NCBI GenBank assembly: GCA_030280995.1
Contig: JASXTE010000015.1
Location: 21,534,501 to 21,598,500, forward strand
DNA from: Hemileia vastatrix
Taxonomy: Eukaryota > Basidiomycota > Pucciniomycetes > Pucciniales > Zaghouaniaceae
Direction: 5' to 3'
DNA length: 64,000 bases
Shown here: positions 18,635 to 61,020 of the stretch, piece after piece
Position numbering within the stretch: position 1 is the stretch's first letter
How the letters are laid out: each line of letters opens with the position of its first letter
Position numbers and translations under genes: made by a program
The notes under the pieces: generated by a model
The model's database searches: none
What the model was told of the DNA's origin: nothing
What the model saw: the letters and a program-made list of their open reading frames with translations, nothing else

Positions 18635-18985
18635 CCAAGTCTTTAAAATGGCTAATTTTCAAGAATTCTTCAAGACTTTGAATTTACATTTTTTGGATCT
18701 GTTAGTCCTTCAAGACTTTAAGCTGAATACTTATTAATAATTTCAAATCCTTGGGGATCTTTTAGTCCATCAAGACTGAAAACTGAATATTAAAGAAATT
18801 TTTTTTAAAAAATATACAAGCAACACAATCATTGGTCCACTATGACCTAAAGCTGGAAATATACTATAGGATTTGGTCCTCTAAGACCTTAAACTGGTAA
18901 ATAACATCAAAATGTCAATCATTGGTCCCCTATGACCTTAAACTGGCAAATTACATTCACTTTGGTACTTTAAGACTAAAAACTG
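18635..18985 (+). repeat. Array of about seven short motifs (AAGACTTTAAACTG type) in A'
   Basis: Seven diverged copies of a roughly 22-nt motif, consensus (A/G)GTCC..(C/T)(A/T)A(A/T)GAC(T/C)TTAAACTG(A/G), are spaced about 40-70 bp apart. Typical units lie near 18706, 18763, 18832, 18873, 18924 and 18963. The same motif is arrayed at 35105-35608 in element A, next to its antisense genes. Confidence 0.7.
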
Positions 18986-19963: not shown

Positions 19964-20680
19964 TTATAAAAGAAGAGAAGAAAACCAAAATAAATATTCT
20001 CTTTGAAATTTTTGAACATCGTTTTTAAAACTTTGCATTAAAATTTGTCTCTTCATTAAATCTTCAGTACTATTAGAAGGGGTTTCCTGAAAATAAGTTA
20101 AAAGTTTACACTTCATATTATCACAAAAGTCATGAATGAGATATCTATGAAATTTAGGATATTGATTTATGTAATCATTATGCAACTGGCCAATTTCATC
20201 TGTATTGGTGATTTCAATAGCTTAGAAGTTGGAAGAGATAGTAGTTGATTTGGAATTAGTATGAGAATTATTAAATTAAAATTAAAAAACTATCTTTTTG
20301 CGCCAGGAAATAATGTTTCAGAAAAACTGAAAGAAGAAACTGGCATAATAGTATTAGGATATTGAGATGGAGGAGGAAGCTTAGGATTGCGATTTTTAGA
20401 TAAAGAAGCTGTTTTGGCCTTTATATTACCAAAGAAGGGGGGAATTTTTGATAATCACATTTTAAGAATAGTCCGATCAGGAAGAGGGGCTGGTCCAGTA
20501 TAGAAATTAGTTCTGGAAGTTATAATTAGATGATTACACTTAATTTTATTAAGCCTGCAAGATCACAGGCAGTTCTTCCAGGAAGACTAGGGCTAGTAAT
20601 CAGACAAGGAAGCTGGTATTTGGCGCAAAGCTCACATGGGACAGAGAGGTCTTTTGAAGAAATATTTATGATGATATTGA
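19964..20680 (-). pseudogene. Decayed antisense Zn2Cys6-like gene of A'
   Basis: On the minus strand, opposite to A' pol, the region near 20645-20540 reads CELCAKYQLPC, 12 residues, then CDL with the next cysteine recovered in another frame (CRLNKIKC). This is C-x2-C-x6-C twice, as in the genes of element A at 36306-35666 and 34954-33404. The downstream part (20185-19964) encodes CDNMKCKLLTYFQETPSNS and a helical stretch that lines up with the C-terminal ends of both A genes. One or more frameshifts and stops break it. It sits between pol and the 3' LTR, the same position as in A. No RNA evidence is available. Confidence 0.65.
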
Positions 20681-21387: not shown

Positions 21388-21727
21388 GGGGGTATCAATG
21401 TTCAGGGATCTGAAATTGGGGATCAGGAATTTTTTTTCACTGGGATCAGACATTATTAATTGCAGAATATTCATATCCACTAGCCCCAGGGCTAGTGGAT
21501 AAGGAATCCACAATAATGCATTATCACACCTCTTATACCCTAGGTTCTGTTCCTGATTCCTGATCCCAAAATCATCACATCCATGATTGAGTTGAAAGCA
21601 AGTCACAATAAATATAATTGGGATGCCATCCTTATGTGTCTCATCACTCTATGATACTTAATTTTGGTGGCAAACACATAAAATTTTTTTCTATCTGCAC
21701 ACCCCACCTGCTCATTTGGTGACAAAT
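21388..21727 (+). mobile_element. Left end of a PIF/Harbinger-like element (inferred)
   Basis: This non-coding segment begins GGGGGTATCAATG at the break in the A' LTR and contains an inverted pair (TTGGGGATCAGGAAT near 21418, its complement near 21556). It ends at the CAAAT target site of element B. Removing B joins it to the Harbinger-like transposase at 44836-45722, so it is read as that element's 5' noncoding part. The opposite terminal repeat was not found, which keeps this tentative. Confidence 0.45.
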
Positions 21728-22901
21728 TGTCAGCCTAGATATCTCTAGGACTTAGTATTTCTTATACTTAAAATAACATAACCTTAAGTAAATTGAGCTT
21801 ATCTCTTAAAAATAAGGTTAAAACAATTATATATATGATTATAATACATATGTATATAATTATTACACTATTATATAACTTATAGTAGTTTAAATAGCTT
21901 ATCAATAGCCTAATATTACTTATTAAGGTGTTAATGGAGTCATAATATACTTATATTAAGTGATATTAAGTAATTATTGACATACATAAGCTTAAATGTA
22001 TACATAAAGCTCATATTCAGTGAAATATGCAGTATATTATGTATATTTAGGTCTATAAGTGGGTTTTAACATCTTAATAGCCTATAAACTTTGTTTTTCT
22101 GCTTATTTTAGGTCATATGGACTTAATCAGTGGATTCACATTGCCAACAGAAGCATAGACATCTATTTCAGGTGCATACAATTAGTTTGGACAACTTAAT
22201 CTGCTTCTTGGATGGATATTCACAGATTTATGGGTTGGGAGATCATTTCTGGGTTAATATGGATGCATGGGGATGTTATTGGGGGCTTGGAAATTTCATT
22301 TGCTCCTTTATATGCTTTGGCTTTCATTTTATCTCTTTTGGATTACTTATTTTACCTATTTCTTTATGGTATCCGCTTATATCTGGATTTTCAAATTATG
22401 TTTTGGGTCTGTGTTATCATTAATTGTGATGGAGGGTCCTTACTGGAGGTCTGGGTGTTGAATCTTCTTGAAGTGGAAGCCATGGGGAGGTGATGGGCCC
22501 TCACAGTTCTTTAATTTCCGGGGATAGTAGTGACATCATCTGGATTGAAGGTCTGTTCTCTCCAGGGGATTTGGGTATAAGTAAGGAGGGATTTTGACGG
22601 TTATTTATCATCAATTACTTACTACATATCAATAAAAAATTTCAATACAATTATTAACATTTAGAAATATATTATAAAGCCTTTTATAAGTCGATATTAT
22701 TGTTATATAAGCTATAACTATATTCTATTTATATATTTTCACCCACTAAGCACACATTTAAATCCAAGAATTTGAGTTTTATTGAGTATAACTATTTTAT
22801 TAGTCTTCCCCTGAGGTTTAATAACTAAATCAATTATTAATAAGTAGTAGGAACATAAATAAATACTATTATATCATACTTATATACTAGACATACTGAA
22901 A
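21728..22901 (+). repeat. 5' LTR of element B
   Basis: It starts TGTCAGCCTAGATATC and ends ACATACTGAAA, where the 3' copy has the canonical ACATACTGACA. It is clearly homologous over its whole length to 43613-44789, with scattered substitutions and small indels, so the insertion is not recent. Internal short ORFs (for example 22130-22493) are shared by descent between the LTRs and are not taken as genes. Confidence 0.92.
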
Positions 22902-24354: not shown

Positions 24355-25447
24355 TGTGGTCTTCCAACATTGGCAGGGGCTTTTGTTGTGTGATTTGGCG
24401 CTGTTTGTGCATGTCTTAATTGACATCTGTTAAGGAATTGGGTATTTTTCTGGTTTTATTCCTTGGATATTGGGTCTGCGGGTATGTGGGTACTATCATT
24501 GGACAGCCCTGGTTTTTCTCTATATTTTATGTTTTGTAGACATTTTTCATATTCTGAGTTTTAAGGGGTCATTTCCTCATTTTTCATTTATAAAAGATTG
24601 CTGTTTAATTTTGTTTTTTGTGTTTTACGGGCTAACCTTAAGTCTTAGGGTTAAGTGCTTAGTACCATTGGATAGAGCTAATTTTTCTCTATATTTCATG
24701 TCTCAATGTTGTTATAGTGAAATTCCGTGTTTTAAAGGTTTTAGTAGTTGTAGCTAATTTTTCTAAGTAGATTAGTGGTTTTTGTTGGTTTTCTGGCTTC
24801 AGGGAGGCCAGACCGCTTCAGGCGGCATCTCCGACGTCGGACAGCCTGCCCGCCTCTGTTTTAGGAGGTTGGGGAGCGCTCCAGGAGGGTTTTTTATGCA
24901 ATTTGGCAGGTACAGGCGCCAGATTGGTGGGTGCGCATGGGCTCTTAGTTAGTGGTCTGTGTGTACATAGTGAATAAGACAGTTTGGGGCAATCTTAATC
25001 ATCATACAACCATCTGGAGGTGATATAATTGTTCCTCACTCAGTTTTCACTGTTTTCTGGCCACAATTGGCTGTGTTTGTTGCAAGTGAGTTCTTCATTT
25101 AACTTAACTTTGGCAACTGTTTTCTCTGTTATAGTCTTGAAAGCTATAGCAAGTATTATTGCTGTCTCTGGTGTGGATTTGCAGCCTACATCAAGTATCT
25201 CTGCTGTCTCTGGTGTGGACATTGTTCTACATTTCAGTTCTTTGGTCTGGTAGTCTATCTGGGGACTACTTTCTTGGCTCATCAAGCAGTCAAGTGTGTT
25301 AAACAGGAGCTTTAGAAAAACAGGAGCCAACTTACTTTAGCAAGTAAATCTCACTCTATTTTTCTAAAGGGACAGGGGATTTTCTCTCTGGTTTTTCTCC
25401 AACTCCCTTGGTCAAGGCCTATAGCTAGTACTATAGGATTGTCTACA
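24355..25447 (+). repeat. 5' LTR of element A
   Basis: It starts TGTGGTCTTCC and ends TTGTCTACA. It matches 36355-37447 without indels. A GC-rich block with several CpGs (24800-24920) is preserved in both LTRs. A 95-codon frame at 24470-24757 is identical in the two LTRs simply because they are copies, so it is not called as a gene. Confidence 0.95.
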
Positions 25448-25451
25448 TTTC

Positions 25452-25469
25452 TGGCGCCCAACGTGGGGT
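25452..25469 (+). other. Primer binding site of element A (tRNA-Lys type)
   Basis: TGGCGCCCAACGTGGGGT lies 4 bp after the LTR. It is the complement of the 3' end of tRNA-Lys(1,2), a primer known from lentiviruses and other retroelements. Confidence 0.85.
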
Positions 25470-25538
25470 AGAACTTGCTAGTTCTTTGGAATCTCTGTTT
25501 TCTTTGGTTGGCTCTTTTTGGTGTTTTAGACTGGAGGA

Positions 25539-27920
25539 ATGGCTTCTGGTTCTGCTATTCATGTGGTGACTGTCAGTGGGGGGGATGGTCCTCCTTCTGT
25601 GATGGTTAGGGAGTGTGTGAGGATTAAAACTTGGGATGTTACCAAGTTTAATGGGGAGGATGTCAAGTGGTTTCTAGAGAAGTATGAAACTGCTTCTGGA
25701 GTGGATGGTGCTTCCTACCTGGACATGGTGAAGCAGATTATCTTCTTCATTGGTGATAGGTCAGTGGAGAAGGAGATTGTGGCCATGTCTGGCTACAAGA
25801 AGAGGGATTGGAAATTGCTGTGTAGGGAGATGGTGGATAGATGGGGTGTCAGGTTCACTATGGTGGATCTGAACAAGGTTGTCAGTGAATGGCAATCTTA
25901 TGGTGGTGTTGGTAACTTACATAGTTACAGGAAATTTCTGCTACAGTTTGATCCTGTGGTGGAATATTTGGTGGAAGTGGAGGAGCTGGCACATGAAAAT
26001 GCTGCCAAAGATGTTTTTTGGTCTGCCCTGGCTAGAGATGTCAGGATGGATGTGTTGAAGGAGTTGTCAAGAAAGAAATTGATGAAGACTCTTTCTAATG
26101 GGGACCAGAAGTTGCCTGCCTTGGATAAGGTGAAGGAGGCTGTTGAGGCCCATTTAAAGTTATTGGCTGTGGACACCTATCAGGAGGGGTGTGCCAAGTA
26201 TGTCAGCAAAGTCAGTGAGGCTTTGGCTGAAGAGGAAGTTAGGGAGAAGAAGGTGGAGAAAAACTTGGTGCAGGTTCCCAAACAGGAGAGGGACCCAATG
26301 GTGGAGCAGTTGGCTGATCTTATAAAGCAGCTGCACATTTTTTTTCAGGAGGCCAAGAAGGTTAATAAGGCACCTTCTCAGCCTAGAGATTTTGAAAGGA
26401 GGGCTGGTAGGAGTGATCCTTGGGTTTGCTCTTATTGCAGTAGGAGGGGGCACAGGTCTAATGATTGTTGGGCACTGAACAGAGATGTGTCTGAAGGAAA
26501 AGTGGAGTTTGATGGCAGGGTTTTTAAGTTCCCTGACGGTTCTTTTGTGAAGCCCAGTGAGGGGCAGGCTCCTGTGGATTTGGTCAGGAGAAGGGGTGGT
26601 CTCAATCAAAGGAGACCAAGGTTTGAGGAGATTCCTGATCAGGGGAAGTCTTCTGTTAAGGTAGATGAGGACGTCAAGGGAAAGGGGAAGGAGGTAAATA
26701 AGGTCTCTTTTTCTACTTCCTTTGGTGGTTTGGAGTTGTATTCTTGTGGTGGACAGTCAAGTGGTGAATGCTTGGCTGGTGTTTATGATGTGGAAGCAGG
26801 GAAGGTGGGAAGGCCTAAGAGCAGTTCTCAGGCCCAACCAAAGCCAAACGCTTCAAAGGGGGATCCTAAGCTGAGTGCAGCTAGGAAGAGGTACAGCAAA
26901 GAGGAGCTGTACAAGATGCAGAAGGGTATGGCTGATATGGGCCGCCCTAGTTTTGGCGCATTGGATATGAATGGTGATCTGATGCCAATGGAGGTGGATT
27001 CTGACTCTGAGGAGGATGTCCCTTTGGCTTCATTGCCAAAGCCTGTTGGATTCAGAGGTTCTGGTGAGGGATCTGGTTTGGTTCCTGTTAATGGTAAATC
27101 TGTTGGTGGTGCTGGTCCTCAAGAATCTTCTAGGACCAAGGTGGTGAAGAAAAGAGCTTACTTTAAGAGGCCAGTAGTGTCTGGTCAAGTTAATGTTATG
27201 GACTCTGTCCTGGAAAAGTTGAATCAGGGTCAGGTTTCCCTATCCTATGGGGAATTGTATGCTATCAGTCCAGGGTTGGCTGATAGACAGAAAAAGTTGT
27301 TGACCAGAAGAAGGGTGTCTTCTGGGGAGGTGGAATACATTTGTGATTCTGCTGAAACGTTTGGTGAGGGGTTGGAAACTCATTTTTCTGCTCCTCTGGA
27401 ATATGTCAATGTCACTCTGAATGGCAGGGAGGCAAGGGCATTTGTGGATTCAGTTTCTCAGATAAACCTGATTTCTTTGTTTGAGGCAACTCATATGGGC
27501 CTCCCCATCAAAACTGGTATTGGTGGGAATTTGAGAGGGATCGGTGGCCATGTCACTGAATTGGTTGGAACTTCAGAGTTTTTGAAGTTAGATGTTGGCG
27601 GAGCCTCAGGGAAGGTTCATTTTTACATTGCTAAAGGTAATGTAAAAGCAGTTTTGGGTGGGCCATTCTTGATGGATTTTCAGGCAAGAATTGGTTATCA
27701 ATTTGATTTGGGAATCAGTTTGGAGTTGACTGGTGAAGACAAAAGGAGACTTCACATGAGGTTGTCATCCCCTGGAGAGGATGGTTGGGAGACCAGGCCT
27801 GGTTTATCTTCAATGTGCCAGTGCATGGACTGCTGCAGGAGAAGGAAGGAAGTGGGTGCTGCCTCTGGTTTTTTGGAGTGCGGCTCAGGCTCTATTGAGA
27901 GTCTGTCTTTTTTAGAGTAA
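25539..27920 (+). CDS. gag: Gag-protease polyprotein of element A
   Basis: This is an uninterrupted 793-codon frame. Residues about 30-240 form the Gag core (VKWFLEKYE, VLKELSRKK). A CCHC zinc knuckle CSYCSRRGHRSNDC lies at about 297-310, followed by a charged linker. A retropepsin domain begins near residue 600 with its active-site loop FVDSVSQINLIS at about 633. The active site reads DSV where the relic A' has DSG, a change (GGT to GTT) likely to disable the protease. The frame ends TCT TTT TTA GAG TAA, and Pol continues in the -1 frame over a slippery heptamer at 27908-27914. Placing protease in the gag frame and RT after the shift is an established retroelement layout. Confidence 0.9.
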   Translation: MASGSAIHVVTVSGGDGPPSVMVRECVRIKTWDVTKFNGEDVKWFLEKYETASGVDGASYLDMVKQIIFFIGDRSVEKEIVAMSGYKKRDWKLLCREMVDRWGVRFTMVDLNKVVSEWQSYGGVGNLHSYRKFLLQFDPVVEYLVEVEELAHENAAKDVFWSALARDVRMDVLKELSRKKLMKTLSNGDQKLPALDKVKEAVEAHLKLLAVDTYQEGCAKYVSKVSEALAEEEVREKKVEKNLVQVPKQERDPMVEQLADLIKQLHIFFQEAKKVNKAPSQPRDFERRAGRSDPWVCSYCSRRGHRSNDCWALNRDVSEGKVEFDGRVFKFPDGSFVKPSEGQAPVDLVRRRGGLNQRRPRFEEIPDQGKSSVKVDEDVKGKGKEVNKVSFSTSFGGLELYSCGGQSSGECLAGVYDVEAGKVGRPKSSSQAQPKPNASKGDPKLSAARKRYSKEELYKMQKGMADMGRPSFGALDMNGDLMPMEVDSDSEEDVPLASLPKPVGFRGSGEGSGLVPVNGKSVGGAGPQESSRTKVVKKRAYFKRPVVSGQVNVMDSVLEKLNQGQVSLSYGELYAISPGLADRQKKLLTRRRVSSGEVEYICDSAETFGEGLETHFSAPLEYVNVTLNGREARAFVDSVSQINLISLFEATHMGLPIKTGIGGNLRGIGGHVTELVGTSEFLKLDVGGASGKVHFYIAKGNVKAVLGGPFLMDFQARIGYQFDLGISLELTGEDKRRLHMRLSSPGEDGWETRPGLSSMCQCMDCCRRRKEVGAASGFLECGSGSIESLSFLE
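27908..27914 (+). promoter_or_regulatory. Candidate -1 ribosomal frameshift site T TTT TTA
   Basis: The heptamer T TTT TTA lies in the gag frame as T-TTT-TTA, two codons before the gag stop. The pol frame is exactly -1 and is open from here onward. U UUU UUA is the slippery site used by HIV-1. A short inverted pair AGGG...CCCT follows at 27923-27937. A' keeps a run of six T at the same place (13130-13135). Confidence 0.65.
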
Positions 27921-30900
27921 TAAGGGCTGATCACCCTAGTGCTACAACCTCTCCCCAAGATGAGGAAATCCCAGGTTGTAGTAAGTCAGCTCCCTTGGAG
28001 ATATACCAAGTGGATTTTCAACTTTCTCTTTTTAATGTTTCTCTTCTCTGCAAGTATTCATCAAGTTTTTTATCAAGTCTCTGTTCTTTCTTAAGATTCT
28101 TAATTATTTTTAATTCAAGTTCAAAGAAGAAGATTGGTTATATATCTTTATTGAAAGATATGCGGAAAAGTTTTGGGGCAGTGAGATTGGGGTCTAAAAG
28201 TAAGTCCTCCCAATTGTGCACCGCTAGGTTTTCTTCTACACCTTTCAAAAGCATTACCTGGGCCACACCTGTGAGCAATGGGGAAACCCCTGGTTATTTT
28301 TGTAGGTCAGAAGAAAACTCAAGAAAAGAAGATAAAAATTTCAAGATAATTCATGAAAATCAAGAAAAAAATCTGAAGATAATGAAGAAGGAAGATTCAA
28401 AATATTTTTGTAAAGATCTTCATGATCAATTTTTGGGCCTCCAGCATGAGGTTAAACTGCAGAAAATTATGAAGAGAGACAATTGTCAAGATTTATTTTT
28501 GGGCCTCCAGCATGAGGTTAAACTGCAGAAAATTATGAAGAGAGAAGATAATCAAGATCAATTTTTGGGCCTCCAGCATGAGGATAAACTGCAAAATTTT
28601 AGAAGATGTGATTCAGATGATGAATCAAGATTTGAAGATTTGGAAGTTGGAAGCGAGGATGAAGATGTGGAATTGGGGAAAAGTTTTGGAGTGGTGAGAT
28701 TGGGGTGTAAAAGTAAGTTCTCCTAATTGTGCACCGCTAGGGTTTCTTCTACACCTTTAAAAAACATTACCTTGTCCACACATGTGAGAAATGGGGAAAC
28801 CCTTGGTTTTTGTTCCAGGTCTGGTGATGAAGAATTCCTGAAGATCCCTCAAGTTGAAGGTGGAGCGGCAAAGTATAAGAAGGTAGCACAGAAGATTAGG
28901 CCTGTCAATGAGCCTATGCCTGTGGGCTTGAATCCGCCTTTGAAGAGACCTCCTTTGTCGAGAGATCTGTACTGTACTCCTTTGGTGAAGAATCCTCCAG
29001 AATTTGTAGAGACGGCTAGGGTGACCGTTGAAAGATTGAAAGTTGTTAATTTTGGTCTTGATGGGTGGTTGTCTAAAGAAGAAAAGAATTTGTTTTTGCA
29101 CGTTATTGTGCTAAGGGGAAAAGCTGTGGCGTTTGTTGAGGAGGAAAGGGGTGTATTGAAGCACTCTTATGGGGAACCTTACTTGATTCCTGTGGTTTGT
29201 CATGAACCTTGGCAAATCAAACCTATTCCGATTCCAGCCGCTATTAGAGAGGATTTTGTGGAGATTGTTAGGGAAAGAGTCAGGACTGGGTTATATGAAC
29301 AATCAACATCCAGTTACTCAAGTCCGGTGTTCTGTGTAAAGAAGCCAAATGGAAAGTTGCGGGTGGTTCATGATCTTAGAGCCTTGAATAGAGTCACTAT
29401 CAAGGATGCTGGTATGCTACCAAGTGCAGAGGATTTTGTTGAAGCTTTCGCTGGAAGGGTGTGTTATGGTTTGGGTGATATTATGGGTGGTTAAGATGAG
29501 AGGGAACTAAATACGGATTCAAGGCCTCTCACAACTTTTGAGACTCCTTTGTGAAGATTTCAGCTCACTAGGTTGCCCCAAGGAGCAACTAATTCAGTGG
29601 CAGTTTATCAAGCACAGATGGCTTGGATTTTGCAGGATGAGGTTCCTACTAATTCTGGTATTTTAATTGATGATGGTGGAATTAAAGGACCATACACTGA
29701 TTATGGTAATGAGGTGTTAGCGGAGAACCCTGGCATAAGGAGGTTTGTGTGGGAATATGCAATAACTCTAGAGAGAGTGTTGTTCAGGATTGCAGAGGCT
29801 GGTTTGACCATTTCAGGGTCAAAATTCTGTTGTTGTGTTCCTGCTTTGGAAATTCTGGGTCATTTAGTATGTAAAGAGGGAAGGATTATGGCGAAGATGA
29901 AGATTAATAAAATCCAGTCATGGCCAAGGCCTAAAAATACTACTGAAGTCAGGGGATTTTTGGGTGTATGTGTATATGTCAGGATTTTTATTAAGGATTT
30001 TTCTTTGTTGGCTTCACCTTTAAGGAGGTTTACCAGAAAAGATGCAGATTGGGAATGGACTGAAGAGTGTGAAGAGGCTTTTCAGAAGTTGAAAAAGGTT
30101 GTTGGTGAAGATATTGTTCTTCACAAGTTGGATTATGGTGTTGGTGCTTGAAAAATTTATCTGGCGGTGGACTCAAGTTATATTGCTGCTGGTGCTGTTT
30201 TGTCTCAGGAGGATAAGACTGGGAGGGTCAGGCCAGTAAAATATGAGTCTGTGGTGTTTAATGAGGTGGAATCTAGGTATTCTCAACCTAAGTTGGAATT
30301 GTGTGGCGTAGCTAAAATTTTAAAGAAGCTACAGACGGTTTTGTGGGGGCAGCATTTTGAGCTGCAGGTGGATGCAAAATCTTTGGTTCAGATGATCAAT
30401 ACACCTAGTCTTCCAAATGCTCCAATGACTAGGTGGGTGGCATTTATTCAACATTTTTCTTTTGACCTGGTACACAAACCAGGTAAAACCTTTACTATGC
30501 CTGATGGATTATCAAGGAGGCCACCTACAGATGAAGATTCTGAGGCTGAAGAGTTTGATGTAGATGTTCCAGTGGTTAGGGCCAGCACAAAGGGTGCTGA
30601 AGATTTTTCTGACCTCCCCCAAGAGGCTAAACTGGCTGGATCTGATCTTGATTCTGGTGATCAGGATGTTTTTGTAGATGAAGATGGAGTTGTTGTTTGG
30701 GACAGCGCAAAATTGGAAAAGGGTGTTTTTGTTAGTGAACTGGATTCTCACAAGTTTCAGTGGAAAGAGAAGGACGTGCCAAAATTTAAGGATTGGTGTC
30801 CTGGTTGGGCTGCTCAATTAGCTCATGTTCATACTGGTGATTTTGATGACAGAATTGTACCCTTGGATGTTGTTTTGTTGGATTTTGAAGATGAGACCTG

Positions 30901-32170
30901 GGGTCAGTCTGGGTTTTATTTTATTTTGGTGGAATATCTGTTGACCTTGGAGAGGCCAGATAGTTGTGATGATGATACTTGGTTGGCAATCAAGAAGAAG
31001 AGTCCTGGATTTTATGTGTCAGGAAGGCGGCTGATGAGGAGGAGACATCCAAATCCTCAAGTGGTGGTGACTCAGAAGAAGGGTCAAGAATTGGTTTTGA
31101 AGTCTTTGCATGAAGACCTTGGTCATAGAGGCTTTGGGGAGACTTATAGAAGAGTAGCAGACAGATTTTGGTGGCCAGGTATGAAGTTGGCTGTGCAGGG
31201 TTGGATTCAATCTTGTGACAAATGTCAAAGAAGAAGTCACTTGAAACCTAAAGAGGTGGGCGGTGCTACTTGAGAATCAACTGTTTTTGGAAGAGTCAGT
31301 CTGGATGCTGTCCATATAAAAGAGGGCAGGTATAAATACTTGATTGTTGCTAGGGATGATTTGTCTGGTTGGGTTGAGGCAGTGCCTCTAGTTAATTTGA
31401 CTGCCAAGAATGTGGCAGAGTTTTTGAAGAAGGAGTGGATTTATAGGTATGGGTTTATGAAGTTGGTAACTGTTGATGGTGGGCCAGAGTTTGGTGCCGA
31501 ATTTAAAGAAGCTGTGGCTAGTGTTGGTTCTAAAGTTAGAGTGGCTACACCTTATTATCCTGAAGCTGAAGGCATGGTTGAAAGAGGCCATCAAGTTATC
31601 AAGAATGCTTTGGTGAAGATGTGTGGAGATAGTGCTGAAAAGTGGAGGCATTATTTACCCTTGGTGTTATTTGCTGATAGGGTCACTGTGAAGAGGACAA
31701 CTGGCTATTCTCCTTTTGAGTTAATGTTTGGTCAGAAAGCCGTTCTACCAGTGGACTTGGAAGCTGTCTCTTATCTTGGAATTGAATGGGATGACGTGCA
31801 CTCAACAGAAGATTTTCTCTGTGCCAAGATGCAACAGTTGGAATGTAGAGGGGAATGTCAAGAGAAGGCATACTCTATAATAATGAAGATTAGGAATCAA
31901 TAAGTCAGGTACTGGGACAAGAAGTTGGCTCATAGACTCAGGAATCCCTTGAAACCTGGTTGTTTGGTTTTGGTGTATAATAGAAGTTTGGAGAGTCAGT
32001 GGGGGAAAATGTTTGCTTACAGATGGAATGGACCTTACAGAGTCAGATCTCAGGCGTCTGGAGGTTCTTATGTTTTGGAAGAGTTGGATGGTGCAGTCTT
32101 GAAAAAGAGGGTGGCTGCAGACCAAGTGAAGAGGTTTTATCCCAGAGGCACTAGGCATGAAGAAGATTAA
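27914..32170 (+). pseudogene. pol: Pol (RT-RNase H-integrase) of element A, six nonsense codons
   Basis: A single -1 frame of about 1,420 codons runs to 32170 without indels. Stops are at 28724 (TAA), 29492 (TAA), 29552 (TGA), 30149 (TGA), 31271 (TGA) and 31901 (TAA). After a variable N-terminal part with three 22-residue repeats come RT (about 29180-29900; catalytic ILIDDGG), RNase H (30167-30540; VDSSYIAAGAVLSQ, RYSQPKLELCG), the integrase zinc region (about 31106-31235; HEDLGHRG...CDKC) and the integrase core (31340-31700; ARDD, VDGGPEFG, EGMVERGHQ as the D, D, E residues). The C-terminal part ends VKRFYPRGT. The RNase H and post-RT sequences resemble basidiomycete Gypsy pol from memory. 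Confidence 0.9.
28435..28632 (+). repeat. Three in-frame 66-bp repeats in A pol
   Basis: Units start at GGGCCTCCAGCATGAGG at 28435, 28501 and 28567, exactly 66 bp apart, encoding LGLQHEVKLQ and a basic tail three times. Each unit contains (G/A)AGGTTAAACTG, a relative of the motif arrayed at 35105-35608. Confidence 0.9.
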
Positions 32171-33003
32171 CTCCGCAATGAGGATAAACTATGAAACATT
32201 CTTTTTTGTTTTGGAATTTTGTGGTGTTGCAGAGCAACTTTTGTGTTGGAAACTTTTGTTAGAAGGTACCCATGGGTGGGGCTTCTAGATTTGATCTTGG
32301 CAAGTGTAGGGGTGACTGATGGGCTGGCTGCTCTATCAAAAGTTACCCCAGATTATCTGTTTCCAACCCTTTCTCTTAATTTGGTTGAACCCTAGTATTG
32401 GTTTCTTTTCACAGGTTTTAGTTCTCTATGACTTTAAACTGGAATTTCCTCTGGTTTTCGTGTGCTGGTCTCTTCACTTTTATTGGTTTTGGTTTTTTTG
32501 TGTTGGACGTTGTGTTTTTGTTAGAAGGTACCCAGGGGGGCTTCTATATTTTATTTTGGCAAGTGTGGGGGCAACTGATGAGCTGGCTGCTTTGTAGAAC
32601 AGTTACCCCAGAATTTCTGTCTCAAGTCTTTTGTTTTTCCTAGTTGAATTCTAGTTCTGTTGTTTATTATTCAGGTTTTAAGTCCGCTATGACTTTAAAC
32701 ATGTTTGGGACTGGCTTCTTTATCTTTGGTTCTTTCAGATTGGTGGTGGATCACTGGTGGTCTCCCATCATTTTTATATATTGGAGGGAGCCCACCCAGT
32801 GATCATTTCTATGGACCAGAATTTCTCTTATTGGACTATCTATGGAGCTCTACTTTCTTTGATTTTGCAGTTATGTTTTTGCTAGATAGAAGTTTTAGAT
32901 TATTTTCTTTTTTCTCTTTTTCTTTTAATTTTTTTATGGGGGTTGTTTAAAATTATAAAATCAAAAATATAGGGTGTTACCACATCAGGGTCACCTGGAT
33001 GTG
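32171..33003 (+). repeat. A element 3' region: duplicated units of about 260 bp
   Basis: Two imperfect units begin GTTAGAAGGTACCCA at about 32259 and 32519. Each continues TTGGCAAGTGT, GATG(G/A)GCTGGCTGC, GTTACCCCAGA and a CTATGACTTTAAAC motif. A third, partial unit is at 35364-35455 and a single decayed one at 17590-17690 in A'. No coding frame is conserved here. Confidence 0.7.
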
Positions 33004-33007
33004 GGCA

Positions 33008-33049
33008 AGCATTGGTGGGGAAAGGCTCATCAATTGGCCGGGCAATGCT
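33008..33049 (+). repeat. Hairpin 1 of a duplicated pair in A
   Basis: Stem AGCATTG (33008-33014) pairs with CAATGCT (33043-33049) around a 28-nt loop that contains GCTCATCAATTGGC. The flanks (GGATGTGGG before, ATT after) are shared with hairpin 2. Confidence 0.6.
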
Positions 33050-33204
33050 ATTTTCTTTTTTATTTATTATTTATTTCATGTGTTTCTGTGTTTCATTATT
33101 TTTATTATCTTCTGAATTTCTAAATTTTTTGAATTTTGTTTTCTGTTAACCATTTAAAAGAATTAATTGTGTATCCACATCAAGGTGCACTTGGATGTGG
33201 GTAA

Positions 33205-33244
33205 GGTATCAGGGGATCAGCTCATCAATTGGCTGGGGGATACC
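33205..33244 (+). repeat. Hairpin 2 of the pair, with compensatory stem changes
   Basis: Stem GGTATC (33205-33210) pairs with GATACC (33239-33244), again with a 28-nt loop holding GCTCATCAATTGGC. The stem differs from hairpin 1 at four paired positions, yet pairing is kept on both sides. Confidence 0.6.
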
Positions 33245-33403
33245 ATTTGTATTATTTTTTTATATTTTATTTTATTTCATTTTATTTATAAATTTTTAAT
33301 TTTAATATATTAGTATCTCACTCAAAAAAAAAAAAAAAATTCTGAAATTATTTTTATTAATTGTTTTATATTATTATTATGTTTCTAATCTTTTTGCAGG
33401 AGC

Positions 33404-34954
33404 TCATTGTCTGGATGATGAAGCTTCTGGAGGCTGGTCCGGATTGTTATGACATTTTTGTTTTTTGTTGGGATTGTGGGAAGCACTGTGTTCTTTGAAG
33501 TGCATCCTGCTGGAGAGATGATAGGGATTGTAATGGTCAGGAATTGGATTGGAGGGAAGTTCAGAGGAGGAAGAAGAAGAGGCAGGAATCAAGTGCTGGA
33601 GGGTGTGCTTAATGATCATAGACATTTTCCAGTGGTCGTCCATTAGGCGCTTTGTCAGGGATTTTTCAAAGTCATTCAAAGGTCCATGGAGGGCAAAGGC
33701 TTTTAGCATGTTGGAACACATGGTGCTTAGGTGTTTCTTCATGTCTCCATAATCCAGGGTCAAAGAAGTTTCAAGAGGTTGGCCAACTCCAATAATAGAT
33801 TCAGGAGGAGGGGTGCCAACTAGACAAGAAGAATTGGATCAGTAATTATTTTTGTTGAAAAAATGGGATAATTAATTGGTACTTACAGATTGGAAGCTCA
33901 TCAAATCTGTAAGCAGCTGGGATTTGGATCTCTGACGATTTTGTAATGGTCATAGTGGGTGGATCAACTAGGGAAAGATATGGATTCTCATGGTCTTCCT
34001 CTGAAGGATCCTGAGAAGGTGAGCTGGGATGCTGATGTTCCTGGGGTCTAGTTGGAGCAGTGAGATTGTTGTTGTGGTGGTGGTGGTTATTTCTGTTGGA
34101 TTCAGCTGGAGGAGGTGCTGGTGATGGGGTACCAGGGTTGTTAAAGGATGGAGCAGGAGAGGGGGATTTGGAAGCAGACTGCTCTCTTCTGGATGGAGAT
34201 TTTGAGGAGATGGAACTGTCAGAAGAGTAGTTGGCTGACAGAGGAGAGGTTTAGTTTCTTTGTCTTAGTTGGGGATGAAGTTGTTGTTGTGGAGCAGTGT
34301 GTGGTGTTCTGGTTTCTTCTTGCGATTCTCTGGCAGGTCTCTTAGAAATCTGGGAAATTTTGGTGCTTTTGGACTTTGAAAGGGTGGATTGCATTGCTCT
34401 GGGAGCAGTAGGAGGTAGTTGGGTTGAGTTGTTGTTGTTGTCTGGATGAATTTGGCTGTTTTTTGGCCGTTTTTGGAGGTTTTGGCCCTAATTTTCACTG
34501 TTTGGTGAGGCAGGCGGGCCGCCTGGACGTGGTCTAGAAGCCTGGGAGTTTTTCTTGAAGCTTTTGGAGCTAGTTTGGCGGAGATAAAAGTAGTTTCTTG
34601 TGAGGCTAAGGCTAGTCTTTTGGGAAGAGTGCGGGAAGCTGAGCTTCTGGATCTTCTGGAAGGAGCAGAAGATAGAGAGGAAGAGGAAGGACCAAGCTCT
34701 GGGGATTTGGTAGGGGATCTGGAGATGTATTTGTGAGAAGGAGAAGGCGGAGGAATAGGGTAGTTGGCGTCTCTGTCACATCTTTTCTTTTTGGAATAGC
34801 AAGAATCACAAGCCCTGTTGTAGAATTTGGATTCAGGATTTGGAAGAGTGAATGTGCAAGGTCTGCACATGTGGATGCACTGTTTGCAGGCATAGTCCTT
34901 GGGAGCAGTGAAGCAAGGGAGAGTAGAAGGGTTAACATCAGGAGATCCAGCCAT
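33404..34954 (-). pseudogene. Antisense Zn2Cys6-like gene 2 of element A (spliced)
   Basis: The gene starts at the ATG at 34954 (MAGSPDVNPS). A cysteine cluster follows: CKQCIHMCRPC, 15 residues, CDSCYSKKKRC, that is C-x2-C-x6-C twice, like fungal Zn2Cys6 domains. Next come long Ser/Pro/Lys-rich linkers. A canonical intron of 67 nt lies at 33886-33820 (GTAAGT...CTAG). Its length restores the frame from ...RFDELPI to GTPPPESIIG. The last exon ends at 33404 with a helical part (MKKHLSTM...LTKRLMDDHW) shared with gene 1 and the genes at 20185-19964 and 60111-61008. Between 34265 and about 34245 a second intron or a frameshift must be assumed. The role may be DNA binding in the nucleus; this is inference from the cysteine pattern. 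Confidence 0.65.
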
Positions 34955-35104
34955 GATCTGTGGTGAGAAAAGATGATGAAAAGGGATAGGTGAGATTTTT
35001 GTCAGTGATGGGTAGATGATGAAGTGAAGGTGGAAGTTCAGCAGGTTGGCTGTAGAGGTGTTCTGCATGAAATTGGCTGCGTCTATTTTATGCAAAAATC
35101 AAGT

Positions 35105-35330
35105 CAGTCCATCAAGACTCTAAACTGAAAAAGCTATGGTATCAAGGCAGTCCATCAAGACTTTAAACTGAAATTTGGTTTCTGTTAGTCCTGCAAGACT
35201 TTAAACTGGCTGGTTTCAATATTTTATCAAGACTAGTCCGTCAAGACTTTAAACTGAACACTGTGTTAGTCCCCCAAGACTTTAAACTGAGGGTTGTAAG
35301 TCCCCCAAGACTATAAACTGAGGGAAAAGT
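35105..35330 (+). repeat. Motif array upstream of antisense gene 2 (six units)
   Basis: Six copies of AGTCC..CAAGACT(T/A)TAAACTG(A/G) begin near 35105, 35149, 35187, 35234, 35268 and 35299. The array ends about 150 bp before the start codon of the minus-strand gene at 34954, so it lies in its promoter region. Each unit contains the small inverted pair AGTC...GACT. Confidence 0.8.
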
Positions 35331-35519
35331 TTTTGTTGTTGGAGTTGATTTTGAAAGATTGGTGGAGGGTATCCACAGGGGGAGCCTCCGAATTTAGCAA
35401 AGGCAAGTTTGTGGGTAATTGATGGGCTGGAAGCTCTATTTACAATTACCCCAGAATGTTAGTTTTTTCTTTGTGTCTTAATGTGGTTGATCTCTGGTTC
35501 TGGGTTTATGATTTAGGCT

Positions 35520-35608
35520 TTTGAGTCCCCCAAGACTTTAAACTGAGGGTTTTTGAGTCCCCCAAGACTATAAAATGAGTATGGTCCCCCAAGACTTAAA
35601 ACTGAGGT
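35520..35608 (+). repeat. Second motif array (three units)
   Basis: Three more units of the CCCCCAAGACTTTAAACTGA type lie just after the 3' end of antisense gene 1 (35666) on the minus strand, separated from the first array by a partial copy of the 260-bp unit (35364-35455). Confidence 0.8.
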
Positions 35609-35665
35609 TTGTTTGTGGTTACATCCTATAGAGGGTGTGGTCAATTTTTCTTTTCTGAATCAAAC

Positions 35666-36306
35666 TCAAGTACTAGTGGAATTACAGAGGGAATCAAGAG
35701 AGGAAATGAAGTGTTCAGAATTAGCCTTGAACTGGTGAATGAGGTGTCTTCTGTTCTCAATGTCCTGTGGATCTCTAGCAGGAGTGGATTAGAAGTAGTG
35801 AAGCAGAAGTTGTTTCTGTTGAGATGTGTGTTGTTGGAACTTGGCCTTGATAGTGGGCAAGTGCATTGGGGTTGGTGGTGCAATGGATCCTACATTGTTA
35901 TCATCACTACCAGAAGAGGGAGTAACTGAGAAGTTATCAGTTTTAAAGTTGAAGGAAGAAATGAATGTTCTTTACCATCAGATGGACCAGAGATGGGGGA
36001 ACTAGTTGTTTTATGGGTTGTGTCACTCTTCTGGGAAGGGTGGAGCTTTTTGATTAATCTGGGTATCAGGATGGATGGCCTAGATCTTTTGGTGCTGGCA
36101 GAAGAAGGACCAGGTTGAGGTGGAGGTGAATCTGTTGTGGAAGAAAGTGGACCAGGTCTGTGGCAGGTCTTCTTTCTGGATTGGCAGACATTGCAGGACA
36201 TTCTGTATGGATGGACAGGTGGTGTCATGGCGCAGATTAAATTATTGTCGATGCAGTATTGGCAGAGGCCCATTTCAGAGGCATATTTGGGAAGAAGGTT
36301 AAACAT
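35666..36306 (-). pseudogene. Antisense Zn2Cys6-like gene 1 of element A (spliced)
   Basis: The start codon at 36306 stands in a strong context (ACCACCATG), only 49 bp from the 3' LTR edge. The protein has CQYCIDNNLIC, a 12-residue loop and CNVCQSRKKTC (C-x2-C-x6-C twice, within the CX2CX6CX5-12CX2CX6-8C signature of fungal Zn2Cys6 regulators). A Ser/Pro-rich linker follows. A 50-nt intron is predicted at 35975-35926 (GTAAAG...CTCAG, with CTGAT upstream of the acceptor). Splicing opens a frame through SGSDDNNVGS to HYF, a TAA that corresponds to CAG (Gln) in A', and a helical tail ending at 35666. Because the gene is antisense to the element RNA, its intron would survive retrotransposition. 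It is probably transcribed from the 3' LTR. Confidence 0.7.
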
Positions 36307-36354
36307 GGTGGTTGGATGAAGAAAGAATGCGGAAATTCTCAATTGGAGAGAGGA

Positions 36355-37447
36355 TTTGGTCTTCCAACATTGGCAGGGGCCTTTGTTTTGTGATTTGGCG
36401 CTGTTTGTGCATGTCTTAATTGACATCTGTTAAGGAATTGGGTATTTTTCTGGTTTTATTCCTTGGATATTGGGTCTGCGGGTATGTGGGTACTATCATT
36501 GGACAGCCCTGGTTTTTCTCTATATTTTATGTTTTGTAGACATTTTTCATATTCTGAGTTTTAAGGGGTCATTTCCTCATTTTTCATTTATAAAAGATTG
36601 CTGTTTAATTTTGTTTTTTGTGTTTTACGGGCTAACCTTAAGTCTTAGGGTTAAGTGCTTAGTACCATTGGATAGAGCTAATTTTTCTCTATATTTCATG
36701 TCTCAATGTTGTTATAGTGAAATTCCGTGTTTTAAAGGTTTTAGTAGTTGTAGCTAATTTTTCTAAGTAGATTAGTGGTTTTTGTTGGTTTTCTGGCTTC
36801 AGGGAGGCCAGACCGCTTCAGGCGGCATCTCCGACGTCGGACAGCCTGCCCGCCTCTGTTTTAGGAGGTTGGGGAGCGCTCCAGGAGGGTTTTTTATGCA
36901 ATTTGGCAGGTACAGGCGCCAGATTGGTGGGTGCGCATGGGCTCTTAGTTAGTGGTCTGTGTGTACATAGTGAATAAGACAGTTTGGGGCAACCTTAATC
37001 ATCATACAACCATCTGGAGGTGATATCATTGTTCCTCACTCAGTTTTCACTTTTTTCTGGCCACAATTGGCTGTGTTTGTTGCAAGTGAGTTCTTCATTT
37101 AACTTAACTTTGGCAACTGTTTTCTCTGTTATAGTCTTGCAAGCTATAGAAAGTATTATTGCTGTCTCTGGTGTGGATTTGCAGCCTACATCAAGTATCT
37201 CTGCTGTCTCTGGTGTGGACATTGTTCTACATTTCAGTTCTTTGGTCTGGTAGTCTATCTGGGGACTACTTTCTTGGCTCATCAAGCAGTCAAGTGTGTT
37301 AAACAGGAGCTTTAGCAAAACAGGAACCAACTTACTTTAGCAAGTAAATCTCACTCTATTTTTCTAAAGGGACAGGGGATTTTATCTCTGGTTTTTCTCC
37401 AACTCCCTGGGTCAAGGCCTATAGCTAGTACTATAGGATTGTCTACA
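36355..37447 (+). repeat. 3' LTR of element A
   Basis: It matches 24355-25447 with 12 substitutions and no indels. The upstream GGAGAGAGGAT tract (36345-36355) is the likely polypurine tract. On the minus strand it would have to supply the promoter of antisense gene 1. Confidence 0.95.
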
Positions 37448-43490: not shown

Positions 43491-43612
43491 AAAACTGTTT
43501 ATTGAGTATATGTATTATAGAAAATTTAAAAAAATTATTTTTCTATTTCACTCCTTACTTTTAATTAAAATGTCTTAACATTTTTTTATTGTTTTTTTTT
43601 TGGGTGAGGGAA

Positions 43613-44789
43613 TGTCAGCCTAGATATCCCTAGGACTGAGTATTTCTTATAATTAAAATAAGATAACCTTTAGTGCATTAAGCTTATCTCTTAAAAATAA
43701 TGTTAAAACAATTATATATATGATTATAATACATATATATATAATTATTACACTATTATATAACTTATAGTAGTTTAAATAGCTTATCCATAGCCTAATA
43801 TTCCTTATTAAGGTGTTAATGGAGTCATAATATACTTATCTTAAGTGATATTAAGTAATTATTGACATACATATACTTAAATGTATACATAAAGCTCATA
43901 TTCAGTGAAATATGCGGTATATTATGTATATTTAGGTCTATAAGTGGGTTTTAACCTCTTACAAGCCTATAAACTTTGTTTTTCTGCTTATTTTAGCACA
44001 TATGGACTTAATCAGTGGATTCACATTGCCAACAGAAGCATAGACATCTATTTCAGGTGCATACAATCAGTTTGGACAACTTAATCTGCTTCTTGGATGG
44101 ATATTCACAGATTTATGGGTTGGGAGGTCATTGCTGGGTTAATATGGATGCTTGGGGATGTTATTGGGGGTCTTTGACATTTCATTTGCTCCTTTATATG
44201 CTTTGGGTTTCATTTTATCTCTTTTGGATTACTTATTTTACCTGTTTCTTTACAGTATCCGCTTTTATCTGGATTCTCTAATTATGTTTTGGGTCTGTGT
44301 TATCATTAATTGTGATGGAGGGTCCTTACTGGAGGTTTGGGTGTTTAATCTTCTTGAAGTGGAAGCCATGGGGAGGTGATGGGCCCTCACAGTTCTGTAG
44401 TTTCTAGGGATAGCAGTGACATCATCTGGATTGAAGGTCTGTGCACTCCAAGGGATTTGGTTATAAGTAACAAGGGATTGTGATGGTTATTTATCATCAA
44501 TTACTTACTACAAATCAATAAAACACTTCAATACAATTATTAACATTTAGAAATATATTAAAAAGCCTTTTATAAATTGATATTATCATTATATAAACTA
44601 TAACTATATTCTATTTATCTATTTTCCACCACTAAGCATGCATTTAAATCCAAGTATTGTGAGTTTTATTTGAGTATAACTATTTTGCTAGTCTTCCCCT
44701 GAGTTTTAATCAATAAATCAATTATCAATAAGTAGTAGGACCATAAAGAAATACTATTATATCATACTTATATATGAGACATACTGACA
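43613..44789 (+). repeat. 3' LTR of element B
   Basis: It begins TGTCAGCCTAGATATC and ends ATACTGACA, giving perfect TGTCAG/CTGACA ends. CAAAT follows at 44790-44794. Confidence 0.93.
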
Positions 44790-58560: not shown

Positions 58561-59264
58561 TGATTCTTTTTGTTGTACCACTCCCAAGGTATGTCAATTC
58601 CTCAACTTTTTTTTATAATTTGTTTTCTCAATTTTTCTTCTTTATAAATCATTTTTTCCCCTGTTTTGTTGATTTTTTGGAATTTTTTCTGGAAATGGTA
58701 TCATCAAATCTATTTGGAACTCCTCTCAGGATAATCATCAATCAAAAATTTAAGAGATAATTATCAAACTACTAAGGAAACTCCTGGTTTGGAATCTTGT
58801 AAAAAGTTTACTCATTTTTTTGGAATCTTGTGAGATGCTTGCTCATTTTGTTTTTTCATTCCAGATCAACCAAAGTCTGATAAACCAGGTAAGTAAAGAA
58901 AGGGGAGAAGGGTTGGTTTCTAGTAAATCTTTAGGGAGGGGCTCTAAATATGGTAATTAGAAGATTTTCCATTTTTTTTATTTCATAAATTTTTCAATTT
59001 TCAATTATTAAAGATAATCAATCTAGTAAAACTTTTGTGCAATTGAGTCTTTCTGCTGTATAAATTTGTTCATTTAATCATTTATTTGTATTTAATGGAT
59101 GAATTCTAAATACAATGCTTGTTTTATTATTTCTTTGGCTTTGGTCACATATGAAATCATTGGCAGGTGGTATTGTGAATCCCATCACTTTTACTTGGTT
59201 GATTATCTTTTTGATTGATTTATTTAAGAATTTATGAAATTAAAATGAAAATTTGGTAATTTGT

Positions 59265-60009: not shown

Positions 60010-60021
60010 AAGATGCCCGGG

Positions 60022-60110: not shown

Positions 60111-61008
60111 ATGTCGAATTTTCCTTAGCCAACTCCCATGCCTCCACACCCCAAATTGGATGGTGGAATCATACCCGGCAGTATTCTCAAGCCTGCACAG
60201 CCTGCAAATGTATGGAATACTTCTGCCTTGAAAGCATGGTGACATGAGGTCCTCGCCAGAAATGCGAGTTTTGCCGCTGGAGACGGGTGGTGTGTGATGC
60301 CTTATCTAAAAATGCTGACATTGAGTGTCAATTTACGAAAACCAAATATTGGGTAATACCGAAGACCAAAGAAGTGGTCGAAGATATCTGGGACGTATCG
60401 GTTGGGGACAATCAGTCGGTGGGAGAGATAAAGGAGGAAGTTGAAGATACCATGGAAACCTGGTTAACCCAGGCCACAAGTAAGAAAAGAGGGGTTGAAG
60501 ATGATGAGGATGAAGTCCCCATCTTGAGATAGATGCCAAAGAAGCGGAAAATGGTCATTGAGGATGACAAAGAGGAGAAGGAAGTGACAGTGGAAGTCAC
60601 CCCGAAATTATTCTTAGAAGCTGACCCATTGTTCAAAGTAAGTCTGTTCTTCTTTTTTTTTTAAAAAAAAAAAAATTTTGTTACTGATGACCTATGTTTT
60701 AGAATTCAGATTTCATTGTGGAAGCTACACCATCGCTTCTAGTTGAGGCAAATCAACCAGTTTTTGATTCGAGGGAGGACAACAAAGAGACTCTCAACCA
60801 GGTATGGTCAAAGAAACCTCGGCAAGGTTGACAAACTCAATTCATTGAAGATTTAAGTGGTGAGGTTGACAAGATTTTTGATGCTGCCTCCTTCAACGTG
60901 GCCAAAGAATTACTAGAAATTGGAGAAGTAGTACCGGTAGGAGAGGAGGATTTATTTGAGAAATTCAGGAATGAAATAAGAGTGGTTTTGGAAAAAATGA
61001 AGAAGTAG
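60111..61008 (+). pseudogene. Zn2Cys6-like gene in F2, antisense to its pol
   Basis: The start is taken at ATGTCG (60111), from which one frameshift is needed to enter the cysteine frame. The cluster CTACKCMEYFC, 12 positions including one TGA, then CEFCRWRRVVC, is C-x2-C-x6-C twice. An acidic region and a PKKRK nuclear-localisation-like motif (60536-60550) follow. A canonical 65-nt intron lies at 60638-60702 (GTAAGT, CTGAT branch-like site, TTTTAG) at a codon boundary. The second exon reads NSDFIVEATPSLLVEANQPV and ends at 61008 with the helical tail (LLEIGEVVPVGEEDLFEKF) seen in the genes of A. In-frame stops are at 60245, 60530 and about 60829. It lies between F2 pol and its 3' LTR on the opposite strand, as in element A. 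Confidence 0.65.
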
Positions 61009-61020
61009 TTTTGGGAGAAA

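Follow-up and report, generated by a model that had tools for sequence, protein, structure and literature searches.

Candidate antisense accessory genes with zinc-cluster-like motifs and predicted introns between pol and the 3' LTR of Ty3/Gypsy elements in Hemileia vastatrix

A stretch of 64,000 nucleotides of the Hemileia vastatrix genome (contig JASXTE010000015.1, positions 21,534,501 to 21,598,500), called the window below, was analysed. It contains a Ty3/Gypsy LTR element, element A (24357-37447), in which pol and the 3' LTR are separated by two minus-strand genes (Table 1). The two LTRs differed at 11 positions per approximately 1091 aligned bases; BLAST extended the similarity of the 5' LTR to 24336, by appearance a chance match of the flank. 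The Gypsy type named in the initial annotation was confirmed by the LTR pair and by plus-strand domains for RNase H and integrase, in that order within pol (Pfam: RT_RNaseH 79.6 bits, Integrase_H2C2 64.6 bits, rve 38.6 bits). The reverse transcriptase model gave no match in the pol piece scanned (28727-29494), and this domain was placed by position only. In the gag-protease frame, the aspartyl protease model scored 23.8 bits, just short of the cut-off of 24.3, and a CCHC knuckle 12.5 bits at a cut-off of 20.8 (Pfam). The stretches after the 5' LTR and before the 3' LTR were presumed, by the look of the sequence, to be like a primer-binding site and like a polypurine tract, respectively. Relatives of the RNase H-integrase piece included proteins of Austropuccinia psidii and Puccinia, and no homologue of it was found in viral contigs. 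No clean target site duplication of element A was present in its flanks. Element A sits inside element C, which is flanked by CAAAT on both sides. The 3' LTR had been placed next to the antisense genes; it does adjoin gene 1, with its start corrected to about 36357, which leaves some 50 bases between the LTR and the ATG of gene 1.

Table 1. Features of element A and of the related elements B and E (positions in the window)
Feature	Position	Strand	Basis or remark
Element B antisense gene, C-terminal segment	19967..20221	-	matches gene 1 C-terminus
Homologous zinc cluster, element B	20536..20636	-	antisense to pol; one-base frame break
5' LTR, element A	24357..25447	+	left edge approximate; pairs with 36357-37447
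Primer-binding-site-like stretch (presumed)	25452..25468	+	after 5' LTR; from sequence
gag-protease frame, element A	25530..27920	+	gag named by position
Three hairpins of TAAACTG type, between protease and RT regions	28438..28591	+	sequence
pol: RT (by position), RNase H, integrase	28727..32170	+	Pfam; in-frame stops interrupt present copy
Hairpin of TAAACTG type, between RNase H and integrase	30613..30634	+	sequence
Gene 2, last exon	33404..33819	-	shared-variant pN/pS
Gene 2 intron, 67 nt	33820..33886	-	GT-AG; 67-69 nt across copies
Gene 2, second part	33887..34250	-	different frame from first part
Gene 2, first part (229 aa)	34265..34954	-	zinc-cluster motif at 34888-34778
Hairpin array between genes 1 and 2	35106..35604	+	4-bp stem, 6-nt loop, 1 nt, TAAACTG
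Gene 1, exon 2	35666..35925	-	in-frame stop 35791-35789 in present copy
Gene 1 intron, 50 nt	35926..35975	-	GT-AG; alignment of copies
Antisense gene 1, exon 1	35976..36306	-	zinc-cluster motif at 36264-36163
Polypurine-tract-like stretch (presumed)	36345..36354	+	before 3' LTR; from sequence
3' LTR, element A	36357..37447	+	LTR pairing
Zinc cluster, element E	60194..60295	+	antisense to minus-strand pol (~62470-63960); in-frame stop

In the predicted protein, a six-cysteine zinc-cluster-like motif near the N-terminus is followed by a middle rich in Pro, Ser and Thr and by a C-terminal segment that appears helical by eye. As initially annotated, CX2CX6C was found twice in each of the two genes, as CX2CX6C-x12-CX2CX6C in gene 1 and with a spacer of x15 in gene 2, and no double motif occurred in 100 shuffled windows. 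A motif scan of the window (spacer 5-16; stops and a one-base shift allowed) yielded four matches versus none in 100 shuffled windows, all four antisense to the pol of their own element. Gene 1, element B (with a frame break) and element E (with a stop) share a spacer of 12, whereas it is 14 in element F and 15 in gene 2.

The further claim that the genes are Zn2Cys6-like held for the six cysteines and fell short in the HMM search, in which gene 2 (10.9 bits) and gene 1 (11.8 bits; 11.3 spliced) stayed under the PF00172 gathering score of 21 bits, as did element B (14.7 bits). No Zn_clus match was obtained in the two pieces of element E included in the Pfam scan, which did not extend to element F. 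The spacing of gene 1 would fit the usual limits of PF00172, CX2CX6CX5-12CX2CX6-8C. The Zn2Cys6 domain has its basic residues in the first half, whereas in A, B and E they lie mainly in the second half (RKK in gene 1, KKK in gene 2, NKIK in B and WRR in E), as if the halves had been swapped; element F carries a basic KRR in the first half too. In the profile alignment, residues 47-62 of gene 2 fell on profile positions 1-16, and the first halves of gene 1 and B on approximately 17-35. A structure model of the cluster from a two-row alignment had a pLDDT of 50.7, too low to use, and the only PDB sequence match of the gene 2 cluster up to E=10 was an ethanol regulon regulator (E=3.9).

A search of 5.8 billion proteins, relying on shared 5-residue words, turned up no homologue of gene 1 (25 candidates) or of the first part of gene 2 (477 candidates). 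Viral contigs contained no homologue of the latter, and nothing was found in a P0006 scan of bacterial genomes (P0006 named Xanthomonas by one source).

For comparison of copies, 38 full-length tails including that of the window were aligned. They were selected for likeness to the element A tail, with 40 of the 5745 candidates of a first look scored, and are therefore not a measure of the share among all copies. Splice sites, indels by row, stops, codons and third-intron candidates were checked in all 38 rows. Because L039 duplicates L038 and L042 duplicates L041, L039 and L042 were dropped for the variant, hairpin-count and indel tests, leaving 36 distinct copies. Variants present in at least 3 of the 36 copies were counted as shared, those in exactly two copies were counted in neither class, and variants and sites were treated as independent despite the common ancestry of the copies.

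Both GT-AG introns predicted at the outset (35975-35926 and 33886-33820) join the flanking frames. GT and AG were present in 38 and 36 of the 38 rows for intron 1, and in 35 and 38 for intron 2. Indel events numbered 6 per 117 intron nt versus 11 per 2058 exon nt (p=0.00016), a density about ten times higher in introns; intron 1 had two 1-nt indels among copies. Of the 11 exon indels, nine shift the reading frame, including one present in four copies, and homopolymer runs were 1.7 times denser in introns than in exons. Copies with intron 2 exactly removed were not present in 747.6 Mb (at most 3 mismatches), a result that speaks neither for nor against splicing. The predicted introns thus behave like introns among the copies, a conclusion supported by the indel density and the retained splice dinucleotides.

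The frames of both genes had to be corrected. Gene 1 does not reach its natural end in the present copy: it is truncated by the in-frame stop, which occurs in fewer than 3 of the 38 copies, and in 23 of the 36 distinct copies all 196 codons of the gene are open. Gene 2 is not a single frame, since 34954-34265 and 34250-33404 lie in different frames. The change at 34265/34250 is accounted for by neither predicted intron; neither 34954-34265 nor 34250-33887 carries an indel in any of the 37 other copies, and the stop closing the first part is present in 37 of 38 copies. Scanning for donors and acceptors of matching phase gave no third-intron candidate with good, conserved sites; the best-looking one has a GC donor that is missing in 36 of 38 rows. 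In the copy alignment, no frame of the second part was clearly under selection.

In the predicted antisense frames, shared variants were enriched for synonymous changes relative to singletons (odds ratio 2.10, p=0.0004; with variants of at least two copies counted as shared, 1.68, p=0.001), and the other two antisense frames gave odds ratios of 0.97 and 0.77. Shared-variant and singleton pN/pS were 0.34 and 1.17 in gene 1 (36306-36106), 0.27 and 0.61 in gene 2 (34954-34730), and 0.24 and 0.76 in the last exon of gene 2. As a yardstick, an integrase piece gave 0.11 and 0.89 (35 copies fetched, of which seven without a 500-base match were dropped). One sense frame was enriched as well (odds ratio 1.75, p=0.007); by our own reckoning it has its third positions in common with the antisense frame in three of five exon blocks, and it contains conserved stops in all five. 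No stop was conserved in 90% of copies in the predicted frames, save the ends of the two parts of gene 2. Cysteine codons were kept in 33-38 of 38 rows at each of the 12 places. These data support the antisense frames as coding sequence under purifying selection, and on this basis the elements seem to code for an additional protein, perhaps a regulator.

Long frames might also arise by chance opposite a G/T-rich sense strand with few opposite-strand stops. The gene 2 region has 33% G and 31% T on the sense strand, and the best of 500 first-order shuffles contained an ATG frame of 240 aa, longer than the 229 aa of gene 2 from ATG 34954; the stop-to-stop length of 277 was attained by 1 of 500 such shuffles. 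The longest minus-strand ATG frame, however, is 267 aa, longer than any in the 500 shuffles of either order (second-order maximum 189), and neither codon selection nor a recurring motif can be produced by composition. A composition artefact is very unlikely on these three grounds, with a chance close to nil.

The motif recurs beyond element A. In each of the two modules, the element B gene aligns with gene 1 at a score that none of 2000 shuffles reached (61 for the C-terminal segment; stretches picked by eye). Homology of the two is based on this module-wise alignment and on motif spacing; tblastx of the pair gave nothing significant. The C-terminus of gene 2 matched neither the element B gene nor gene 1 (scores reached by 726 and 295 of 2000 shuffles). 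A fifth motif lies within the 50 kb downstream of the window, antisense to element F (spacer 5-20; without shuffle control). No 3' LTR of element F was seen and its pol ends about 8 kb from the cluster, so that its pairing with pol is by inference. Elements C and D lack the pattern in the window scan. Recurrence of motif and antisense layout is thus supported for A, B and E, and for F by inference. Basidiomycetes have many zinc-cluster proteins, and a host gene of this kind could have been captured once and carried as a passenger without function, in keeping with the element B tail, where most of the gene 2 segment is missing from the part that aligns with A. Given that the motif recurs in further elements and that selection acts on the motif genes, a passenger is distinctly improbable.

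The sense strand carries repeated hairpins. In element A, 12 of 13 TAAACT sites have a hairpin, as do 232 of 249 sites in the tails of the 36 copies, and element B carries covarying hairpins too. The covariation score was 0.467 against a shuffled mean of 0.171, reached by 0 of 500 shuffles; the alignment omits one element B TAAACT site (12075), which has no hairpin. Element F has two hairpins with a zinc-cluster gene nearby, and none was present at four minus-strand TAAACT sites (58810-61702) near the element E gene. The protein might accordingly act on RNA rather than DNA, binding the covarying sense-RNA hairpins as an export, packaging or translation factor. Covariation, the array between the two genes and the element F hairpins fit such a role; the sites near the element E gene and Gag, an equally good candidate binder, count against it, and we consider it unlikely. 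A more specific version, in which intron-bearing antisense zinc-cluster proteins would read a repeated hairpin code on their own sense RNA, or matching DNA palindromes, is quite speculative and has a small probability. If true, it would amount to a two-strand control circuit, with signals on the sense strand and the encoded reader on the antisense strand.

Extra antisense genes of LTR elements, mostly plant examples, are suspected regulators of transposition. Boty and brtn of Botrytis cinerea were reportedly treated by Zhao et al. in 2011. In Boty, brtn is an antisense extra gene between pol and the 3' LTR (as cited in PMC7264820 and PMC8365987). It resembles the present genes in host kingdom, strand and position; the passages available mention neither zinc cluster nor introns, and the comparison is by description, not sequence. 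In the plant lineage Retand, TRP28 antisense ORFs occur in nearly all clusters, tandem repeats lie in the antisense-ORF region of about half of the elements, and the protein is predicted to bind DNA (PMC11963269). Grande gene 23, transcribed from a promoter upstream of the gene, and RIRE2 are further plant examples. These differ from element A in host and in the TRP28 domain, and the word "intron" does not occur in the available text of either paper. The initial statement that no named Gypsy family was known to have such genes therefore does not hold for antisense genes at this position, known from Grande, Retand and Boty, and the novelty lies in genes that contain introns and are zinc-cluster-like.

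HBZ of the retrovirus HTLV-1 is a spliced antisense gene near the 3' LTR that encodes a bZIP protein. The genes of element A share its strand and its location, and splicing in HBZ parallels their predicted introns; homology is not claimed, and no bZIP was found in the Pfam scans. Both PMC11963269 and PMC7264820 refer to antisense genes of HTLV. Silencing by dsRNA and antisense retroelement transcripts that do not code for protein are also discussed (PMC7264820), in line with an antisense or double-stranded regulatory RNA that itself matters, the protein being incidental. Such an RNA would not account for codon-level selection, retained cysteine codons and fewer exon indels, and this explanation is rather improbable.

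Taken together, we favour, with a probability of roughly 0.6, a Ty3/Gypsy group in the H. vastatrix genome with an antisense accessory gene family between pol and the 3' LTR. Antisense RNA would be made by the host polymerase, which would start in or next to the 3' LTR in the case of gene 1 and between the two genes in the case of gene 2; the start of gene 2 is 1.4 kb from the LTR, so that an LTR start is plausible mainly for gene 1. The introns would be removed by the host, and would survive because reverse transcription takes only sense RNA. The protein may bind nucleic acid of the element and thereby regulate transcription, silencing or RNA. VANC proteins of Arabidopsis VANDAL elements are likewise encoded by the element, which has repeated motifs of its own. 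An anti-silencing role would parallel theirs by analogy only, VANDALs being DNA transposons and the proteins unrelated.

Codon selection, intron-like indels and recurrence among several elements of a repeat-rich genome indicate real proteins that were important while the elements spread. If these proteins counter silencing or steer element RNA, they may help to explain the inflation of such genomes.

Copies of element A, a Ty3/Gypsy LTR element whose sense strand is the plus strand, were collected from the assembly holding the window (747.6 Mb, 791 contigs). Its tail, with the minus-strand genes 1 and 2 between pol and the 3' LTR, gave 5745 first-look candidates, 40 of which were scored. In total, 38 full-length tails including that of the window (37 others) were compared, with 92-97% identity to the window. 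Removal of two exact duplicate tails left 36 copies. Identical tails were about 59 kb (L038/L039) and about 12 kb (L041/L042) apart, representing either recent duplication or an assembly artefact.

Singleton variants were assumed to be mostly post-insertion, and variants in at least three copies to derive mostly from the active phase of the lineage. The predicted antisense frames of the 36 copies contained 47 synonymous and 67 nonsynonymous shared variants versus 170 and 508 singletons. This synonymous excess (odds ratio 2.10, p=0.0004; 1.80, p=0.003 with all 38 rows kept) agrees with the initial annotation, which had proposed coding antisense genes. No synonymous excess was found in the remaining two antisense frames of the 36 copies (odds ratios 0.97 and 0.77). 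Shared versus singleton pN/pS was 0.34 versus 1.17 for the gene 1 cluster, 0.27 versus 0.61 for the gene 2 cluster, 0.24 versus 0.76 for the last exon of gene 2, and 0.57 versus 1.02 for the whole of gene 1. The contrast was weaker in the gene 1 C-terminus (0.76 versus 0.89) and in the first part of gene 2 outside the cluster (0.61 versus 0.94), and no clear frame emerged from the variants in the second part (34250-33887). The integrase piece served as a yardstick (0.11 versus 0.89; 28 copies plus the window). One sense frame was also enriched (odds ratio 1.75, p=0.007, 38 rows); by our own reckoning, its third positions are common with the antisense frame in three of five exon blocks, and it contains conserved stops in all five.

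The 196 codons of gene 1 are open in 23 of 36 copies, and the first and second parts of gene 2 in 17 each. Gene 1 is truncated in the window copy by a stop at 35791-35789. Past this stop, the frame aligns with the gene of element B (score of 61, reached in 0 of 2000 shuffles); the end as first annotated is therefore a break of this copy. The frame change of gene 2 is common to all compared copies, as judged from indel-free sequence on both flanks. In-frame stops also break pol in the window copy.

The GT/AG dinucleotides of the predicted introns (35975-35926 and 33886-33820) are retained in 35-38 of 38 rows, which is weak evidence because the copies are so alike. Stronger evidence is the distribution of indels, with 6 distinct per 117 intron bases versus 11 per 2058 exon bases (p=0.00016). 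All intron indels are one base long and four of the six occur in at least two copies; nine of the 11 exon indels change the frame and nine are in single copies. Both shared exon indels (16 bases, four copies; 3 bases, two copies) fall within the final exon of gene 2. The density of homopolymer runs in introns is 1.7 times that in exons, and run length may therefore account for part of the excess. No copy with intron 2 exactly removed was found in the assembly.

The six-cysteine pattern (CX2CX6C twice, separated by a spacer) was searched with spacer lengths from 5 to 16 residues, tolerating stops and a one-base shift; this gave four matches in the window and none in 100 shuffled windows. A scan of the 50 kb downstream (L082; spacers 5 to 20, run without shuffle control) gave a fifth. 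All five clusters in the scanned 114 kb lie on the strand opposite to the closest pol; in the window scan, no cluster was found for elements C and D. For the fifth, the closest pol is that of element F (plus strand, about 8 kb off); no 3' LTR of F was seen, so this pairing is inferred. In A and B, the halves of the cluster align to the Pfam Zn_clus profile in exchanged order, with scores below the cut-off. The clusters of A, B and E carry their basic residues in the second half, and that of F has basic residues in the first half; an exchanged domain is therefore no rule of the cluster family. An extra single CX2CX6C (CLECHVARERC, 59984-60016) precedes the E cluster by about 180 bases on the same strand. 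Near F, an insert containing a transposase-like, Harbinger-like frame (L082, about 3300-4300) seems to break the antisense gene beyond its cluster.

Coordinates of LTRs, antisense clusters and sense-strand hairpins
Feature	Position	Strand	Remarks
LTRs of element A	~24357-25447 and ~36357-37447		11 differences per ~1091 bases
LTRs of element C	21715-22899 and 43600-44787		93% alike, CAAAT on both sides
Gene 1 cluster (A)	36264-36163	minus	spacer 12
Gene 2 cluster (A)	34888-34778	minus	spacer 15
Cluster antisense to element B	20636-20536	minus	spacer 12, one-base break
Cluster antisense to element E	60194-60295	plus (E pol on minus)	spacer 12, in-frame stop
Fifth cluster, 50 kb downstream	L082:4455-4562	minus	spacer 14, no internal stop
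A hairpins, protease-RT interval	28438-28591	sense	
A hairpin, RNase H-integrase interval	30613-30634	sense	
A hairpins just 3' of pol	32170-32191, 32420-32441	sense	
A hairpin tail array, between antisense genes	35106-35604	sense	
B hairpin stretches	13535-13556, 15554-15632, 18704-18945	sense	some degraded

Element A is inserted in element C. Among 87 relatives of its RNase H-integrase piece, the named ones were mostly Austropuccinia psidii proteins, with a few from Puccinia and Ganoderma and one record named Xanthomonas sp. (P0006). The Gypsy RNase H of the latter, 85% identical to A over 44% of the query, is possibly fungal contamination or a misassignment. The GC content of the window is 34.3%; a passage of PMC8063080 gives 33.8% for A. 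psidii. A rust fungus is the presumed host. The CpG observed/expected ratio (0.17 in the whole window, 0.06 in element B) fits deamination of methylated repeats. A 148-nt segment between the protease and RT regions is duplicated on the sense strand of A (28161-28308 and 28674-28821, 87% alike); it resembles an intron, having GTAAGT within its first part and TAG or CAG close to the other end.

Of the 13 sense-strand TAAACT sites in A, 12 are preceded by a hairpin (4-bp stem, 6-nt loop), always 1 nt away, as are four of nine in element B; no such hairpin was found at the 19 plus-strand sites in the rest of the window or at the 29 sites of the minus strand. The unit in A and B consists of stem, loop, 1 nt and TAAACTG, degraded at some sites. 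Of the B counterparts of A sites in the A-B alignment, those at 13550 and 15626 have hairpins, the one at 15569 retains three of four pairs, and the one at 17354 has no hairpin. In the tails of the 36 copies, 232 of 249 TAAACT sites carry the hairpin. An alignment of 27 sites (25 distinct rows; 6 chosen with pairing required, 1 unpaired B site omitted) had 91% paired cells versus a shuffled mean of 71.4%, 17 cells altered on both sides versus 6.3, and a covariation score of 0.467 versus 0.171 (each 0/500 shuffles). Shuffles were not exceeded for pairs with a double change and for pair types (494 and 252 of 500). Such covariation speaks more for an RNA structure than for a fixed DNA site; the hairpins may act as signals for packaging or processing.

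In the open-access literature, with few subscription papers covered, no description of fungal Gypsy elements with spliced or zinc-cluster antisense genes came up, and the words antisense and zinc do not occur in a rust transposon paper (PMC12210899). The nearest models for the putative regulator are Grande, with a nuclear antisense protein and its own promoter, and Retand, with TRP28 suggested to bind DNA. Most likely, a spliced antisense RNA would give rise to a putative element-encoded, nucleic-acid-binding regulator, whose candidate targets would be DNA, the hairpins, or silencing.
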